Positions 22,280 to 57,705 of a stretch of 64,000 nucleotides of DNA are shown here, piece by piece. Source of the stretch: Nautilus pompilius (taxonomy: Eukaryota; Mollusca; Cephalopoda; Nautilida; Nautilidae). The notes below the pieces were generated by a model. That model was not told where the DNA came from, did no database searches, and worked only from the letters and a program-made list of their open reading frames with translations. How positions within the stretch are numbered: the stretch's first letter is position 1; every line of letters begins with the position of its first letter. Both the position numbers and the translations under genes were made by a program. Location: NCBI GenBank assembly GCA_018389105.1, contig JACATO010002140.1:229501-293500 (forward strand). Direction: 5' to 3'.

Positions 22280-23322
22280 TCATTAAGGAAAGTGTGATGA
22301 ATACTATGGCTCCTGGGAAGGAAATATCACATGACGAGGGTATAGAAGCCAATGTCTTACCTGGTGAAGGCTGCTCCAGATTGCAGAACCCTGAGCAGGA
22401 TGTGCGAGACTGATTCGGTTGACAATAGACATGATTCAGGAAGAAACCACAAAGTTTTCAGAAGTGATTTTAAGTACTTCAGAGTTTGTTTTCTAAGCGA
22501 TAGACAACGACACATTTCGGATTTTAACGTTTTTTTTTTAAATTACTAGGATAAACATTAAAGTGAAGTGGTCTCGTTGAACGTGTAGCTTTCCGAAAAT
22601 CTTTACTAAATAAAACCAAACGTCTATGAAATAGGCAGCAGGTGCTCTTCACAGGTAAGTCAAAGTTTAAATTGTTTGGCAATAATCAACGGCAGTTCGT
22701 TCGAATGCGGACCCGGTTTAACAGTCAGTGAACAACAATTGCAGGTAAGCATAAAGGTTAATCAATACTTGTCCTGGGCTGCATATTAGCCAGACTATCG
22801 GAGTTGGCTTTCATCTATCATGCCATTTCATCAGAAACACATCTCACACGACGAGTGGGCATTCATTTTCCAACACGACAGTACCGCAGGCACACAGCCA
22901 GTGGTGAAAGACTATCTGCAATGTAAAAGGACTAATGGAACAGTCACGTAGACGACTTTTCGTGCGCGCAAAGTCCTGGTATGAGCACCACTGAAGCTAT
23001 ATAGCGTTATACGACAACTGAGACAGTCAAACGGCAACCAAACACCTTGGATGAATTGCGAAAAGAGCTAGAGAATATTAGGAACAGCAGTCCACAGTCG
23101 TACACTGATAACCGGTATGTGAGCATGAAAACAAAGTGTCAATATCTATATAAATCAAAAAGCTCACATGCCAAACAATAACGCACTGTATAATGTATTC
23201 ACTTTGTTTTTGTATATTTGGGGTAATAATTGACTAAACATGCATTACATACGTATTTCAGTTTCAATCACTCTTTATTGGTGCATATTTTGCATGTATT
23301 TACATAATTATTTCCATCACTG
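22280..23322 (+). mobile_element. Tc1-type element family T, copy 1, decayed
   Basis: This copy shares ordered blocks with those at 34.5 and 41 kb. A leader block with ATGGCTCCTGGG lies at about 22307. CCTGGTGAAGGCTGCTCC and a GTTGACAATAGACATGATTCAGG block correspond to the N-terminal DNA-binding part. EWAFIFQHDSTAG (about 22855-22895) holds the second catalytic Asp. VKRQPNTLDELRK (about 23025-23060) and SYTDNRYVSMKTKC lie near the C-terminus. The right end, ATAATTATTTCCATCACTG at 23304-23322 followed by TA, matches the terminal repeat of the 34-kb copy. Stops and frame changes are frequent, so it is dead. The left end was not resolved. Confidence 0.75.
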
Positions 23323-34531: not shown

Positions 34532-35729
34532 AGATTATTGGAAATAATTATGAAAGGCACTATGTAGTGTCTACACAAAGTATAGTTAGAGATGATATAC
34601 AAAAAACAAAATGAATATGTATGATAGATAAATATCTAGCATGTCAACCGTTTGATTTTATAGAACATGACATCTTACTTTCGTGCTCCATACGGGTTAT
34701 CAGTGGATGACTGTAGAATGTTATTCCAAATATTCTGTAACACTTCCACAATTCATCCAAGGCGTTTGCTTGCCGTTTGACTTTTCCAGCAGCCATATTA
34801 ACCCCATAGAGCCTCATTGTTGGTAGTACCAGAACTGTCTGCAGGCCAATGCATCTTTGTGTGTGTTTCATCATTCTCTTTACATTCCCGATAATCTTTG
34901 ACTACATTGGATGTTTGCTTGGAGCACTGTCATGCTGGAAGATAAATTCCCGATCAATGAGTGTTTTTCTAAAAGAATAGCGTGATAGATGATAACCTCC
35001 CTCTCCCTGTTAGCAGTCATTATAACTCCGGAGTTTTATGAAAATTTCTAAAATCCTTGGCTGAAATGCAGCTACATACTTGTATTGATTCACCATCATG
35101 CTTTATTGTAGCTATTGTACACTGACTGTTATTATAATGCTCCCGGTTCTGCCTTCGAGCAAATACGTTTTATTTCTGCTGCTCATTTTGGCCTTGCTCC
35201 TACGTTGGCTCTTCCAACTAAAGTTTAAGTGTGTCTTACAGTTCTCGGGGAAATGTTAATACCTATAGTTGCAGCTAGGTCATCCTCAAGATCTTTATTG
35301 GCTCATCATTCATCACATAGGGAAAACACCTTGATGTAGTTAACATCACTTTTTAAAGAGTTAGTGGTTTTCTTCGTCGATCGCGTCTATTGTCAGCAGT
35401 ACCAGTTTAGCGTATCCTCCCTATTGTCTTGCATACAGCATCTTCTGAAAAATTAAGTCGGGGTGCAATCTACCCGCATGGAGCAGCCTTCACCAGCAAA
35501 GACGCTGATCTCTGCACACGATTGTCACGTGATGCTTCCATCCCAGGAGCCATAGCAGTCACCACACATTCCCCAATCATATTTCTGTTTATACTTTTAT
35601 AGTCCTTATGCAGGAGTGGCACTTTCTTATTGCTTGAATGACAACCACTCACCGAGTATTATATTAGCACGTGACGATACTCGCGCTTTATATTAATTTT
35701 TTCTGTTTCTATAATTATTTCCAATACTG
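34532..35729 (-). mobile_element. Tc1-type element family T, copy 2
   Basis: An element of about 1.2 kb, bounded by ATTATTGGAAATAATTATG at the left (about 34535) and the reverse complement of CAGTATTGGAAATAATTATA at the right (ending 35729, followed by TA). The minus-strand coding landmarks run from right to left. LNFSEDAVCKTIGRIR, then TGTADNRRDRRRKPL, form the N-terminal helix-turn-helix and basic arm (about 35460-35365). FIFQHDSAPS carries the second catalytic Asp (codon at 34929-34931). VKRQANALDELWK lies near 34745-34785. Frameshifts and stops split the gene. The longest unbroken piece is 76 codons at 34644-34874. It is inactive. Confidence 0.82.
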
Positions 35730-37568: not shown

Positions 37569-38047
37569 ATACTTTGACCATAATTCTGCAAAGTATTTCC
37601 GGTATTAACCAGATCTTAGGAGCGAGTTAGCCAGGATTTATCATCACAGTAGCGAAGAAATCTTTCGTCCCGGATAAGTGCTCGCCCTTTGTGGGCGTGG
37701 TCACTTTGGTTTCTGGCCTGGAGAGCGGAGTCCGGTACTCCGTGATGACGCACCAAGGATGGAAAGACCTCCGCTCGAAAGGGTGGAGGCGAGGGAAGCG
37801 ATCACTCGGCGGAAGATTTTCTGCCTGGGGTGTCGCCCAACCTTACGGAAGTCAGGGCTTTCGGCTCCTGGAACGGGTTTTTGAAGCCCATGTTCCAAAA
37901 GTGTTGGCGCAAGGCCATCATTAGGGTTACGGACCGTCATCCGTCCCACACAGGAGTCTTTGGACTTCAATAGGCTTCGGCCTAATCCCAGGAACTTTCG
38001 TTCCGCTGAGGTTTCGACCTCAATACCCACGCCCTTCTCTTCGGAGA
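37569..38047 (+). ncRNA. Chain of consecutive stem-loops, candidate structured RNA
   Basis: A GC-rich island in AT-rich DNA that folds as a string of local hairpins. Stems were traced by hand at 37569-37596 (8 bp, loop 12), 37653-37667, 37683-37697 (5 bp, all G-C), 37699-37718, 37726-37742 (6 bp), 37768-37789 (9 bp, GAAA loop), 37808-37825 (7 bp, GATT loop), 37853-37870, 37870-37896 (GGAAC/GTTCC enclosing a 6-bp inner stem), 37905-37917, 37924-37947 (5 bp plus outer GGG/CCC), 37953-37968 (6 bp, TTTG loop), 37971-37984 (5 bp, C-TTCG-G), 37991-38004 (5 bp, TTTC loop), 38007-38022 (6 bp, TTCG loop) and 38036-38047 (4 bp, C-TTCG-G). G-T pairs in several stems, and the TTCG and GAAA loops, make sense only as plus-strand RNA. 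No polymerase III boxes were found, and TTTTT runs inside argue against polymerase III. Function is unknown. Confidence 0.5.
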
Positions 38048-40597
38048 TGACCACGCATTCATGAACTTTCACACGCACCACACATGGCTATCACCACCCC
38101 CCAGAAAAGTCAACGAGACTGTCTAGAAGCCAGAGCCAGCATAGTGCGCTCATCCAAACAGTGGATAGTACTGCAAAAATACACTTACAATTAAAGGTTT
38201 CTTATTTGTAATTCGAGTTGGCGATACGCACAAAAACTTTACCGATGAATTCTACAGAAAACAACGAGTCTCATAAGGATCTGGGAGACCTATAAAATAC
38301 CTATAGCGAACAGAAATGAATTTTACCTAGCATTTTTAAAATTAGAGACAGTGAATTCGCTATTGACGGCGAGTTTCCACATTGACAGCAAGACAGAAAA
38401 AGAATTGTATGGTTGTTATCGCACGCGCACACACACACACACATATATATAATCTGCGTGTAATAATTATTTTTACTTCACAACAAAAAATTCTATCACA
38501 AATAACAACAATATTTAGATATCGCTGAATTAAGTCTTCTGTATTGGAGTTATTCCCCTTTATACTGAAATTATTTCCTTTATTGAGCAAAAATAATCAA
38601 ATTTTTCATAAGTAAAATATTCAAGAAGAATTATCACATTTAGACATAATTAGTGTGGATATATGTAGTACCAATAATTTTAAATTTCTGTTATGCGCGT
38701 GTGCATTTTATTTTTTTTTTTGTAAAATAAACTAATTTCAAAAGTTTTTAATGCTTTCATTTGAAATACCTTCTAGCTAGGAAAGAATGATAGAGCAGGA
38801 ATATAATAAAATAAGATAATATTTATATAAATATTCATTTAGATATTATTCGACTTTTATTTAACAAACTGAATAAAAATCCAAATATTTATTCATTCAA
38901 AAGACAGACAACTGTGGTGATTTAACTCATTTCGTTTCATTAACTCTTTGGTTCGAAGGTGCAGCTAAGATTAGGACATCGAAATTTATTTTGTATTATC
39001 CGTAACCGTTTTGAGAAGTCTAAGAGCGCACATAAAATAAATCAGCTACTTACTGCATCAAATTACGCAGAGATGATGTAGAAATCCTAAATGATGGTCG
39101 TGGTTGCCATTCGTTATTTGGCGCAATTGCGACTTTTCAAAACGAAATTCTTTCAAAGAAAAACAGAAGAAATAGTGAGAATAATTGCGAAAGGTCCGAT
39201 AATTTGTGGTAAAATAAGGCGCGAATTGCTAATCTAATTTGAATTGTATGGTGATAATACATTAAAAGAACTTAGCATTTTTTTCAATGGCAGTTGTTTT
39301 CAGAAGGCCGACAAATGCGCTCACGGCCCGAAAGCCATTTTGATAACAAGGAAACGGAGACAGAGATTGTATTACTAATTTTCTTTGGATTTCTCTCCAA
39401 ATTAGTTATTTTCGGCAACATTATGAACACTTAATTTTCCATACAAGATAGTGTTGCTAAGACCAGGTAACAGAAGTATTTCCAAATCGATAAAACTCCA
39501 CGTACAAGCTATCACAAAATAAAACGAACGAACGTTTCTGTCCACGGACAGTTTGGATGTGATCGACCATTCCTTGCCAATGTCATTCTTTCTTTTTTTG
39601 CCGACTTCGAAAATTTTAAGAAATTGGATTCTTACGAGTATTTTGCACCTGCTTTTGCTTGTAAGTTATCGGTGAAAAGACACCACGCGCTGTAAAGGCT
39701 TGAGCAAGTACCTTTTCGTTTTTTTTAAACCACCTTTCATTGAAAAATTGTATTGTGATACGGTTAAGCTTAATATTTACCCTATCTGAGCGTCAGTGTA
39801 GCTATGAGGCTCCTGATGACGTTAATCTGACGCAGAGAATCTAGGACTAGATGGAGACGTGACAACTGGATCGAGTGGGTATTAAAATTTTTATTCAAAT
39901 CGGCTTAAAAAATAAACAGATACGTAAAGTAGGTGTGGGGGGTATTCGATAACTTCTGATAGCCTTATTGGTAGTCATACAAATGGAGCCCACATTTCGA
40001 TAATCGATCCGTCATCAACATCGGGGTCAAGACCTGAAGCAATTTTGGTCCACTGATGATGATGATGTACAGTAGATGTTTCTTCAATAAGCGTTTTTTT
40101 TAAAAAAAATTTTTTTTTGGATTGTACAAGAGACTTCCGCTGAGCTTGAACCCGATACTTGATGATTGGTATATTTTTATGCGGTTTTCGAGCAACGTTT
40201 CCGTCGTGGAAAAGGTAATATAAAAATCAGTGCACTAAAGATTTATAAAACATAATTTGTGTGTGTGTAAATATATATATTATGGATTAAAACAAAGCTT
40301 TTTGTTGGAAGTTTAACAAACAAACACTTTATAACTAAAAACAAACATTTGCACAATACATGATAAATGGTACTAATTTTCTTGCTATGAACAATTATGG
40401 TACATTTGGTTTCGTTCCTTATTGTTCCTAATTTATACTATACGTAGACCATCAGTAGTCAGTATATGACCATTATCTATCATTTGGCAGACGTCAGACT
40501 AGCGAAAGTCCGAGCCCACCAGACGTCCGCTAAACGAGCGACGATATGTACAGGTACATACTACTCCCATTACTTTGGAATCAAGTTATTCTAATAT
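38048..40597. other. AT-rich DNA, no gene recognised
   Basis: Includes a small CA microsatellite running into TA repeats (38427-38450) and a T8A8T9-type homopolymer palindrome at about 40094-40118. No gene could be supported. Confidence 0.5.
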
Positions 40598-42045
40598 CAG
40601 AAATTATAACACACGCGACGTCAGTTCTATCGAGTTAACAATAATGATTCCAGATGTACAAAAGCAATGCTTTTTAATAATACATCACAAACAGAATATG
40701 CATGAAAAATCAATAATTTCAAATGAAATAAATAGAGTACGCACACTACACTATTGCAGGAAATATATAAAAATAAAAACAATACATTTTACAGTGCAAT
40801 AGTATTTGGTATGCGAGCCCTTTGGTTTATACATACAAGGCACCTTGTTTTCATGTTCCCGTACAGGTTATCGATGTATGACTGACTGTAAAATATTGAT
40901 CTAACTGTTCTATATCCCCCTCCCACAATTTATCCAAAGTGTTTGATTGCCGTTTCAGTTTCTCAGTAATCATATAACCCCATATAGCCACGATGATGTT
41001 CATAAAAGGACTCTGTGCGGGCCAAAGCATCTTATTTCAATAGCCTTCTTACATTCCAATTAGTTTTTCACTGCACTGGCTGTACGCTTGGGGTTAAGGT
41101 CATTTTGGAAGATACAATTCTGCATAATGGGATGTCTTCCTGAAAAAATGCTATGATGGATGGAAACCTGCTTGTACTTGTCAGCGGTTAGTATATTTTA
41201 GATTTTATGCAAGTCTTCGACATTCCTGACTGATGCTCAGCTCCACAATTGTATTGATCCATCCCCATGTTTCACTGCAGCTGCTGTACACTGGCTTTTG
41301 GGCCGGTCGTCGACCCGGCTTTCGAACCAACTACCGTTAATTTATTGGCAAACACGTCAGACTTGAACTCACCTGTAAAGAGCGCCTTCTTCTAGTCATC
41401 TCGCTGTTTATTTTCTCCTGCTCCATTTCAACCCTTCCAATCGGTTGTCTTTTCTCGGAAAATGTTTCGAGCATCCACACATCCACTGAGACCACTTCCA
41501 GCTAATGCCTATTTATCCATTCTTGGAGAAAAATGTTAACACCTGTACACACAGTCAGACCATTTGACTCATCGTCCAAAACAAAGAGGACATAACCTGA
41601 GATACGTAAAATCGTTTGTGAAGAGTTTGGGCTTTATTCATTCACCGTATTGGTTGTCAGCACTACCAGTTTCGGGTATCCTTTATAGTGTCTTCCATTC
41701 AGCTCTTTCTGAAACGTGAATTCCAGCCGCAATCTGCTGCATAGAGTATCCTTCACCAGGTAAGACGTTGATTTATATACACCATTGTCATGTAATATTT
41801 ATTCCCCAGGAGCGATAGTATTCACCACGGATTTCTCATTGATATCTCTGCCTATACTTTTATAGTTCTGATGCAACTGTGAAACATTCTGACTGCTTGC
41901 ATCACAACCAATCACAGTGTACTATATCAACACGCGACTGCGCTACAGTGGATTTAATTTTTACGTAGAAAATACCGTTCTATCACGTATTATTTGCATT
42001 TTATTCTCGGTTTTTCTTCTGGTCCCATAAGTATTTCCTATACTG
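40598..42045 (-). mobile_element. Tc1-type element family T, copy 3
   Basis: This copy matches the 34.5-kb one in the same orientation. The right end reads as the reverse complement of CAGTATAGGAAATACTTATG and ends at about 42045. The left end is less certain. A shortened CAGAAATTATAAC at 40598 is the best candidate, and the last coding stop lies near 40793. Landmarks on the minus strand are EGYSMQQIAAGIHVSE (N-terminal helix-turn-helix, about 41755-41705), a diverged second-Asp block ILQNDLNPKRTAS (about 41130-41085), WGYMITEKLKRQSNTLDKLW (about 41000-40930) and SYIDNLYGNMKTRC (about 40890-40845). Many stops and frame changes show it is inactive. Confidence 0.75.
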
Positions 42046-55339: not shown

Positions 55340-55471
55340 GTAAGTACTTTACCTATTTTGTATCAATGTTCATCATTAGTTTTTGTGATAAATTATTTTT
55401 TCATCTATTTTTTTTTTTAATCTACATAATTTCTAATTCTATTATATTTAATCCTACTTGTTTCATTTCAG
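55340..55471 (+). other. Predicted 132-bp intron in the 5' leader
   Basis: The donor GTAAGT at 55340-55345 and the acceptor TTTCATTTCAG ending at 55471, preceded by a long T-rich tract (about 55397-55420), make a convincing small intron. It ends three bases before the first ATG (55475) and would remove an AT-rich spacer between the promoter-proximal leader and the coding region. Confidence 0.65.
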
Positions 55472-55474
55472 GAA

Positions 55475-57705
55475 ATGGATGGCTCCAAGTATAGTACCAA
55501 ATACGCGTCCTCAAACAAGTGTTTATCTGCTTGGAAGTGAAATTACGGGATCCAAGTTACCATCAATCAGACAAACTCATGGTCTTTTTCTTTATCGCCA
55601 CCACAATGTACTAGAAGAAGCCAGACGAGATGGATCAACCTATGTAATTCAGAAAATTCTGCTATTCTGGGAGAAAGGTAGAATATCGACAAAGGAAGTA
55701 CACCATTGCAAGAAGACGCTCGAGAGATCGTTCGAAAAGTGGAGGCTGCTCAAAAAGAACAACGGTCGAACATCAGTTACTCAAAAGTCTAAAGAAGAGG
55801 AGTCTATTCGTGTGGTCGATGATCTTTTTGGCATTGCGCATGCAGATGCCTTAAAAAGAATTTCTATCCCCGAAGATCGTGAATTTTCGATAGCACAACG
55901 ACAAAATGGGCGAGTCGGTTGTATGACTGGGGTTGATGCCGTTCTACACAAGAAAGAACAGAGATCTGTTTGGAGAAAAATGGACGCGCATCAATGACGC
56001 ACATGTGAAACTTCAAGGGTTAAAGTAATGATGTTTATTCAAGGAGTGAATCAGATCCCAAAGACAAATCTGATGAGTCCCAGAGTACTGCTGATTCAGC
56101 ACCTACCACAAGCGATCAGGGCCGTCGGCGTGGTGGAAAACGAGTCATTGCTTCTAACATATCTGCTGTTCTCGACCGTACTAGACTCTGACAGAAAGGC
56201 GACAATGGTAATACTTGGAACAGCTAAGGCCCTGGGTCATGATGTCACAGAATTGTCACTCAACCGGCAGACAATACAAAGTCCTCGTCAGAAATATAGA
56301 GACAACGTTTCATCTTATCAAAGAAAATTTTCAGGTAGAATTTCCTCTTAGTGCACTGGGACGGGAAAATTCTGCCAGTATTACTGGAAAACAATATTCT
56401 GAGCGTCTACCAATTCTCGTCTCAGGAAGCGGTATTTCTCAATTACTAACAGTAGCGAAACTACCTTCTCCAACTGGAGAAGCTCAATCTACTGCAGTCT
56501 GTAATGCACACAGAAAGTGGGAAATTGAAGAAAGGGTTCAAGGTATGAGTTTCGACACAACTAGTTCGAACACAGGAAGAACCAACAGGACTTGTTCCTT
56601 GAATGAACACAACCTCGGGCACAACCTTCTTTACTTTGCCTGCCGTCATCATATTTATGAGCTTGAAATATCAGCGGTTTTCAAACATTGCAAGGGAGAG
56701 TCGTGTGGACCAGAAATGCCCCTCTTCAAACGATTTGCATCTAAGTGGCATTGTCTTGACAAACAGAATTTCCAGGACGGTTTCACTGATCCCGTCATAT
56801 GCCAATTTATATCACAGAAGAAAGAGGAGATTATGCTATTCATCGATTCACAGTTTTCTGAAGCTCAACCGAGAGACGATTACTGAGAACTACTGGAGCT
56901 GGCAAGCATCTTCCTATTAGTTCCAGCAGCAGAAGGCGTCCATTTTATGACTCCAGGGGCCGTGCACCATGCCCGTTGGATGTCAAAAATAATTTACACT
57001 CTGAAAATATGCCTATTTTGTGGCCAGTTTCACATTTCTTCTCGCGAGGAGAAGGATCTCAGAGATATCTGACCTTTTGCAGTATGTCTCTTCATTAAAG
57101 CCTGGATCACTTGTCCTAGCGCACCCTGTGCTCCTGCAGATGACCTTCAATTCCTCATAGATTTGCTGGGTTACTCGTCAATACATCCAGGTATTGCACA
57201 AGTCGCCTCAGCCGAATTGTCTAACCATCTATGGTATCTTTCAGATGAATTGGTTGCGCTGGCCTTTTTGATGACAACACCTCTGCCTCGACTAAGATTC
57301 AGATGATTCACGCGCTGAATGCAAAAAGGTGTACGGAGAATGACAAAATGGCTCCTAAAAGAGTTAAAGTTGATCTAAAAATGTTTGAGTATAAGACACT
57401 ACAAAATTTCGTCACAAGAAGTTCACGCACTTTGTTTACAAATGTTAATCTATCTCAGGACTTTCCCAAGGAAAATCCAACGACCTGGAGTGAATTGGAG
57501 GATTATAAGCGAGCGGAAGAGAAGGTGAAAACCATCAACGTTGTTAACGACTCTGCCGAGAGAGCGGTTGCTCTCATTCAAGAATACAACACAACAAACA
57601 TCTTACAAAGAATGAAGAGCAGTTTCAGTTTCTTATACAAGTTGTCAACGAACACCGCCGTCGTTTCCCAAATACCTTGAGAATAATCTTTCTGCAGCTG
57701 AATAA
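55475..57705 (+). pseudogene. Broken RNase-H-like transposase-type gene, unnamed family
   Basis: The coding sequence opens with ATG at 55475 and soon changes frame (to the frame of ATG 55479). It then shows conserved-looking blocks: SEITGSKLPS, VVDDLFGIAHADALKRI with PEDREFSIAQR (about 55810-55900), DRKATMVILGTAKALGHDV (about 56190-56250), RLPILVSGSGISQLL with KLPSPTGEAQS, SFDTTSSNTG (Asp codon 56554-56556), CRHHIYEL (Cys 56641), QPRDDY, GAVHHARWMSK, HLWYLSDELVALAF (Glu 57247) and NDSAERAV. An Asp block followed by Cys-x-His-His and a late Trp/Glu block is reminiscent of hAT-like RNase-H transposases; catalytic assignments are inference. I recall similar long uncharacterised proteins in other invertebrate genomes but cannot name the family. 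Lesions include stops at 55995-55997, 56884-56886 and 57070-57072, a one-base loss in a T run near 57267, and several other frame changes. It is not functional. Confidence 0.75.

Follow-up and report, generated by a model that had tools for sequence, protein, structure and literature searches.

The window analyzed in this study is a stretch of 64,000 nt from Nautilus pompilius (assembly GCA_018389105.1, contig JACATO010002140.1, positions 229,501 to 293,500 of the forward strand). Positions 37667 to 38108 of its plus strand are occupied by a retroposon copy that is truncated at the 5′ end and terminates in a CA-rich tail with a short A-rich end, its extent being taken from the alignment to other copies and its right end from the sequence itself. 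The copy carries a chain of RNA hairpins, 14 in number and all on the plus strand. Hairpin 1 (CGCCC-TTTGT-GGGCG) lies at 37683 to 37697, hairpin 2 (CGGAGT-CCGGT-ACTCCG) at 37726 to 37742, and hairpin 3, whose 9-bp stem with a GAAA loop had been pointed out in an earlier sequence-only reading and includes G-T pairs, at 37768 to 37789. Next comes a joint (37787 to 37798) between GGCGAGGG repeats, where about 110 nt of internal sequence kept in copy L018 and others are missing from the window copy, according to the alignment as counted by hand. Hairpin 4 (GGCGGAAGATTTTCTGCC) is at 37808 to 37825, hairpin 5 (TGGGGT...ACCTTA) at 37826 to 37845, hairpin 6 (GGAAGT-CAGG-GCTTTC) at 37847 to 37862, and hairpin 7, a two-part stem (TGGAA...TTCCA), at 37869 to 37897. 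Compensatory changes were seen in hairpin 8 (37901 to 37921; in other groups of copies), hairpin 9 (37924 to 37947; GGG..ACGGA...TCCGTCCC), and hairpin 10 (37953 to 37968; loop TTTG). The chain closes with hairpins 11 (37971 to 37984; TTCG), 12 (37991 to 38004; TTTC), 13 (38007 to 38022; TTCG), and 14 (38036 to 38047; a 4-bp stem with a TTCG loop), so that the last five loops are exactly those listed in the sequence-only reading. The single-stranded CA-rich tail and A-rich end (…CACCACCCCCCAGAAAA) follow at 38048 to 38108, with a 3′ end common to the copies; the feature thus reaches somewhat past the interval first delimited, 37653 to 38047.

We counted nonoverlapping hairpins with a stem of 5 bp or longer and a loop of 3 to 6 nt in 37653 to 38047 and compared them with 300 dinucleotide shuffles. 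The plus strand contained six Watson-Crick hairpins, the number originally claimed, against a shuffle mean of 1.44 (sd 1.07, maximum 6), which agrees with the earlier estimate that chance would give one or two perfect stems. When G-T pairs were allowed, 14 hairpins were found, close to the "about fifteen" first proposed, against a mean of 7.9 (sd 1.7, maximum 13). The minus strand contained 6 Watson-Crick hairpins (shuffle mean, 1.6) and 9 with G-T pairs (mean, 6.05). Folding of both strands against shuffles, a check that had been suggested from the outset, supported the structure: the plus strand folded at -164.5 kcal/mol compared with -142.3 for shuffles (sd 6.6; z -3.37; 0 of 100 shuffles equally good), and the minus strand gave z -2.85. 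With the element's own limits (37667 to 38080) the scores were -2.86 and -2.0. The tetraloop end alone (the five hairpins in 37953 to 38047) reached only z -1.1, an unexceptional stability, and the weight therefore rests on hairpin number and conservation, not on energy. The segment is indeed a GC-rich island, with a GC content of 0.559 versus 0.368 across the window; 0.16% of 395-nt windows taken at a step of 25 nt were equally GC rich.

The window also contains repeats of other kinds. Copies of one repeat lie at 35390 to 35675 and 41654 to 41938, and copies of a further repeat at 22857 to 23171, 34951 to 34639, and 41083 to 40761; in both sets the copies within the window are about 73 to 75% identical. 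Besides, a run of long open stretches of up to 224 amino acids occupies 55452 to 57677, and the four that were tested had no Pfam match above the cutoff. A degenerate gene is one possible explanation of this run, and a mobile element is another. A second copy of the hairpin chain was not found within the window, where one of the models used spans hairpins 8 to 14 only.

We searched the feature against known families. In Rfam, nothing in the window exceeded the gathering score, and the chain therefore corresponds to no known structured RNA family there. At permissive limits, the single match listed for the region was mir-129, with 17.2 bits against the 48.6 needed (E 3.9), a chance match. ARAGORN found 0 tRNAs in the window. 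Among other copies of the element, L010, L015, L017, L018, and L022 had no match at the gathering score, and L052 and L053 matched 18S rRNA only, both searches having low power for diverged heads. No tRNA, 5S, or 7SL head was therefore found by ARAGORN in the window or by Rfam in the window and copies, a search that is weak for diverged heads. A protein-coding reading of the island was rejected, its two longest open stretches having no Pfam match. A phage blastn search and a search of viral contigs for two exact patterns returned nothing, and the GC content can be explained without invoking an acquired sequence, one of the origins originally offered. A literature search found no description of this hairpin-chain family, which may already stand in Dfam or Repbase.

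When the genome (assembled into 2558 contigs totaling 728 Mb) was searched for copies with window positions 37600 to 38100, as had been proposed, a dispersed family emerged. Among 523 candidate places, 40 were scored, giving 64 aligned pieces of 74 to 100% identity, with the window itself included; not every copy among those listed entered the alignments described below. The left ends of the copies vary, L017, L018, L019, L020, L021, and others being cut at different points. Most copies share the right end, namely, the last hairpin with a four-base loop, the CA-rich tail (...CACCACC), and an A-run; L019 stops short of it. One left end, (TC)AAGTGTGGC, is common to L028, L037, and L038 and nearly so to L036, from which we take the full-length unit to be about 600 nt, short and noncoding as in a SINE.

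Flank-to-flank repeats were scored in 24 copies and in 552 mismatched pairings of flanks. Scores of at least 9 were obtained in 5 of the 24 copies versus 1.1% of the mismatched pairings. Four copies (L021, L037, L038, and L052) have well-placed target site duplications of 9 to 14 nt at both ends; L020 also scores at least 9, with a misplaced duplication, and L045 has a weaker one. A clear, well-placed duplication is absent from 20 of the 24, including the window copy, for which no convincing one was found. The family as a whole thus displays the features of target-primed retroposons: dispersal, 5′ truncation, a common 3′ end with an A-run, and duplications of variable length at some copies. 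In a separate observation, the places L009 to L016 (contigs C1199, C1758, C1506, C2438, C2393, C1614, C2201, and C132) belong to a recently multiplied stretch of several kilobases or more that contains one C-type hairpin unit, the compared pairs being about 93 to 98% identical over kilobases. A tandem array of about 60 units of 36 bp is present in L010 and was seen in L009, L011, and L012 too.

A second group of units, D, was reached through a diverged piece in L023 and yielded 309 candidates, of which 40 were scored; some rows of this search are copies of the first group. We assigned the units by eye to groups A (including the window copy), B, C, D, X, and Y. Units of different groups occur joined in one locus: A-D in L023, with the second unit cut short; X-D dimers in L050, L052, and L053; and a Y-X-D trimer in L057 with L049. 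A unit tail also precedes the D unit of L047. In these multiunit loci the units are arranged head to tail with A-rich joints, and the following unit starts with GATCAAAG or a variant of it. The second unit of L053 is a mosaic whose 5′ half resembles D and whose 3′ half resembles X. In L056 (C303), read on the minus strand, the first 520 nt are nonunit sequence upstream of an X unit (L056:402-921); this stretch has no readable open reading frame, terminates in a CA-rich tail plus A-run that resembles the element's own tail, and is a possible upstream part of a longer element.

Such arrays raise the alternative that an autonomous LINE carries the units as its structured 3′ untranslated region, in several tandem variants, and that the monomers are LINE insertions truncated at the 5′ end. 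The Y-X-D and X-D arrays, the varying 5′ truncation, and the nonunit stretch of L056 with its CA-rich tail and A-run would all fit this explanation. However, several monomers (L028, L037, L038, and nearly L036) share the unit start, which is unlike random truncation, and no reverse transcriptase was recognized upstream of the units in L052, L053, and L056, a point examined in translations by eye only and hence poorly tested. We regard an origin in a LINE 3′ untranslated region as unlikely.

One X-D dimer is joined to rRNA sequence. On the minus strand of L052, at 140 to 1801 of that locus, the 3′ end of 18S rRNA (a match to RF01960) and ITS1 precede the dimer, and the whole chimera is flanked by a AGCAGTTAT duplication, which lies within 3 nt of the 18S piece. 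The placement of 18S and ITS1 directly before the unit might be taken to mean that the unit belongs to the internal transcribed spacer of host pre-rRNA. The rDNA itself speaks against this: L055, in which Rfam recognizes 18S, 5.8S, and LSU, is 96% identical to the L052 piece for 601 nt, the match stopping at an A-run within ITS1 beyond which L055 has other sequence, and no hairpin unit was found between 18S and 5.8S in either L054 or L055. The element is thus not the ITS1 of these two rDNAs, and a spacer origin is highly improbable. The simplest account of the chimera is that reverse transcriptase jumped from the 5′ end of the unit to the A-run of a pre-rRNA, although insertion of an element into a single rDNA copy, followed by joint transcription, would serve as well. 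rDNA had been suspected as the source on two occasions. The suspicion from the array-bearing places L009 to L016 was dropped after Rfam was negative for L010, L015, and pieces of C1758, C2438, and C2393, and that from the 18S piece of L052 was rejected for the rDNA examined (L054 and L055). As a side observation, the assembly contains two classes of rDNA, represented by L054 (C429:11900-14400) and L055 (C1860:2400-6400). The L055 class has an expanded 18S 3′ domain and a long ITS1; the L054 class has an ITS1 of about 200 nt, is spaced at about 26 to 31 kb in four contigs with two copies, and may come from a second organism present in the sample or be a diverged class of the host.

We then consider whether the structure has been conserved among copies. 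Because the consensus that RNAalifold returned for the whole alignment was mixed and long range, scoring was done directly on the window copy's 14 local hairpins. Over 87 pairs in 26 copies (alignment A1), standard pairs fill 1884 of 2025 stem cells (93%). The plus strand had been proposed as the RNA strand, and it is supported as such because G-T or T-G cells outnumber A-C or C-A cells, by 253 to 50 in these copies and by 125 to 53 in the wider alignment A4. Whole hairpins were gained in L007, L022, and L023 and lost in L010, L014, L044, L041, and L042, as judged from the alignment.

Compensatory changes, for which the sequence-only reading had suggested a test, were seen in counts of events, whereas pairwise covariation gave nothing significant. 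A pairwise covariation test with a tree-based null found none of the 68 stem pairs significant at E<0.05 among the 26 copies; the test has little power because independent events are so few. After this null result, we adopted a different statistic, a count of events on the branches of a FastTree tree of the 26 copies, for 68 pairs in well-filled columns and with 400 rescattered histories as the null; the count favors paired cells because its structure comes from the window copy. Internal branches showed 6.0 double compensatory changes versus 0.49 under the null (maximum of 3 in 400) and 12.5 pair breaks versus 34 (minimum of 22). The six doubles are not independent, as four of them share one branch, leading to L010, L014, L027, L044, and L045. 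On terminal branches there were 3.0 doubles versus 2.05 and 55.5 breaks versus 66.5, and 3% of null histories had as few breaks, so that these branches are not fully neutral. Among changes from the paired state, pairing was retained in 72% of those on internal branches and in 47% of those on terminal ones (p 0.008 by Fisher's test, with counts rounded).

Two further alignments were examined. A2 comprises 19 rows, seven of the 26 rows of A1 (L007, L014, L021, L022, L023, L041, and L042) having been dropped for hairpin gains or losses or, in one case, as a near-duplicate; three of five pair measures exceeded every shuffle in it, and two did not. A4 comprises 36 rows from 32 sources, with diverged groups included and with near-identical L009 and L011 to L016, as well as L046 (the same place as L052), left out. 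Here, changes on both sides occurred in 30 of 42 pairs versus 12.6 in shuffles (sd 2.1), and the covariation score was 0.251 versus 0.141 (sd 0.005), counts that lean toward structure because A4 was fitted to the model. Since compensatory doubles are held by internal branches and terminal branches look near-neutral, the hairpins were probably kept in source lineages rather than in dead copies.

The better preservation of structure on internal than on terminal branches would also be expected if the copies were retropseudogenes of a structured, polyadenylated host noncoding RNA that is not itself mobile. Retropseudogenes of this kind have been proposed for the WEIRD RNA of Magnaporthe, and chimeras of noncoding RNA, SINE, and LINE (WEIRD, Mg-SINE, and MGL) are described in Magnaporthe grisea, which are explained by template switching of the LINE reverse transcriptase and of which a tripartite one has 14-bp direct repeats (PMC2104539). 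The resemblance lies in copies of a noncoding RNA fused to copies of other transcripts, and the L052 chimera with another RNA accords with it; the Nautilus case differs in that the switch occurs at A-runs, the partner is pre-rRNA, and the structured RNA forms an abundant family. Against an immobile host RNA, several diverged multicopy groups suggest that, as in a SINE, there were several source lineages, and we consider this explanation quite improbable.

SINEs are derived from tRNA, 7SL, or 5S RNA and mobilized by LINEs, Alu being a dimeric example. The present element is like SINEs and Alu in being short, noncoding, A tailed, and dispersed, with duplications at some copies, subfamilies, and A-rich linkers between units. 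It differs from them in that no known small-RNA head was detected, in that the unit of about 600 nt consists mostly of hairpins placed one after another, 14 of them in the window copy, and in that dimers and trimers combine units of different groups. A stem-loop in the 3′ untranslated region of L1 and Alu has been proposed to act in retrotransposition (PMC5135761); the likeness is a structured RNA near the priming end, whereas the Nautilus element has a whole hairpin chain instead of one stem and no joined LINE was found.

Taken together, the island is a mobile repeat of unusual shape and not a one-off RNA gene. We think it likely that it is a dead genomic copy of a SINE-like, noncoding, A-tailed retroposon, which is filed here as a SINE-like retroposon, probably LINE mobilized and of unusual hairpin-chain design, and not as a proven SINE. 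Among the origins first offered, part of a mobile element is upheld, and a structured noncoding RNA fits the source RNA; a stand-alone gene at the site seems not to be the case, because the window contains a single 5′-truncated, internally deleted, and diverged copy without a convincing duplication. The readings as retroposons overlap (all but the ITS1 one involve target-primed retroposons), so that their likelihoods need not add up to certainty. The source RNA would be about 600 nt long, with short local hairpins strung one after another and then a CA-rich tail that leads into an A-run. A LINE reverse transcriptase might act in trans on this RNA by target-primed reverse transcription, with the A-run serving for priming where the target is nicked. 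If the enzyme also jumped from one A-rich template to another, the dimers, the trimers, and the 18S-ITS1 chimera would result. As for the hairpin chain, our guess is that it has a protective role for the RNA or serves to present it to the LINE protein. A bolder possibility, which we put forward as an unlikely one, is a class of retroposons without a tRNA, 5S, or 7SL ancestor, in which interchangeable hairpins are gained and lost singly, A-joined heteromultimers such as Y-X-D form, and the chain itself is the function, through either stability or capture of the LINE protein.

The family is of interest as a mobile RNA whose structure was probably kept during multiplication and in which the comparison of internal with terminal branches separates upkeep from later decay. 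The multiunit copies and the pre-rRNA chimera preserve template switching at A-runs as a natural record. Should the head prove unrelated to tRNA, 5S, or 7SL RNA, the element would widen the range of cargo carried by LINE reverse transcriptases.
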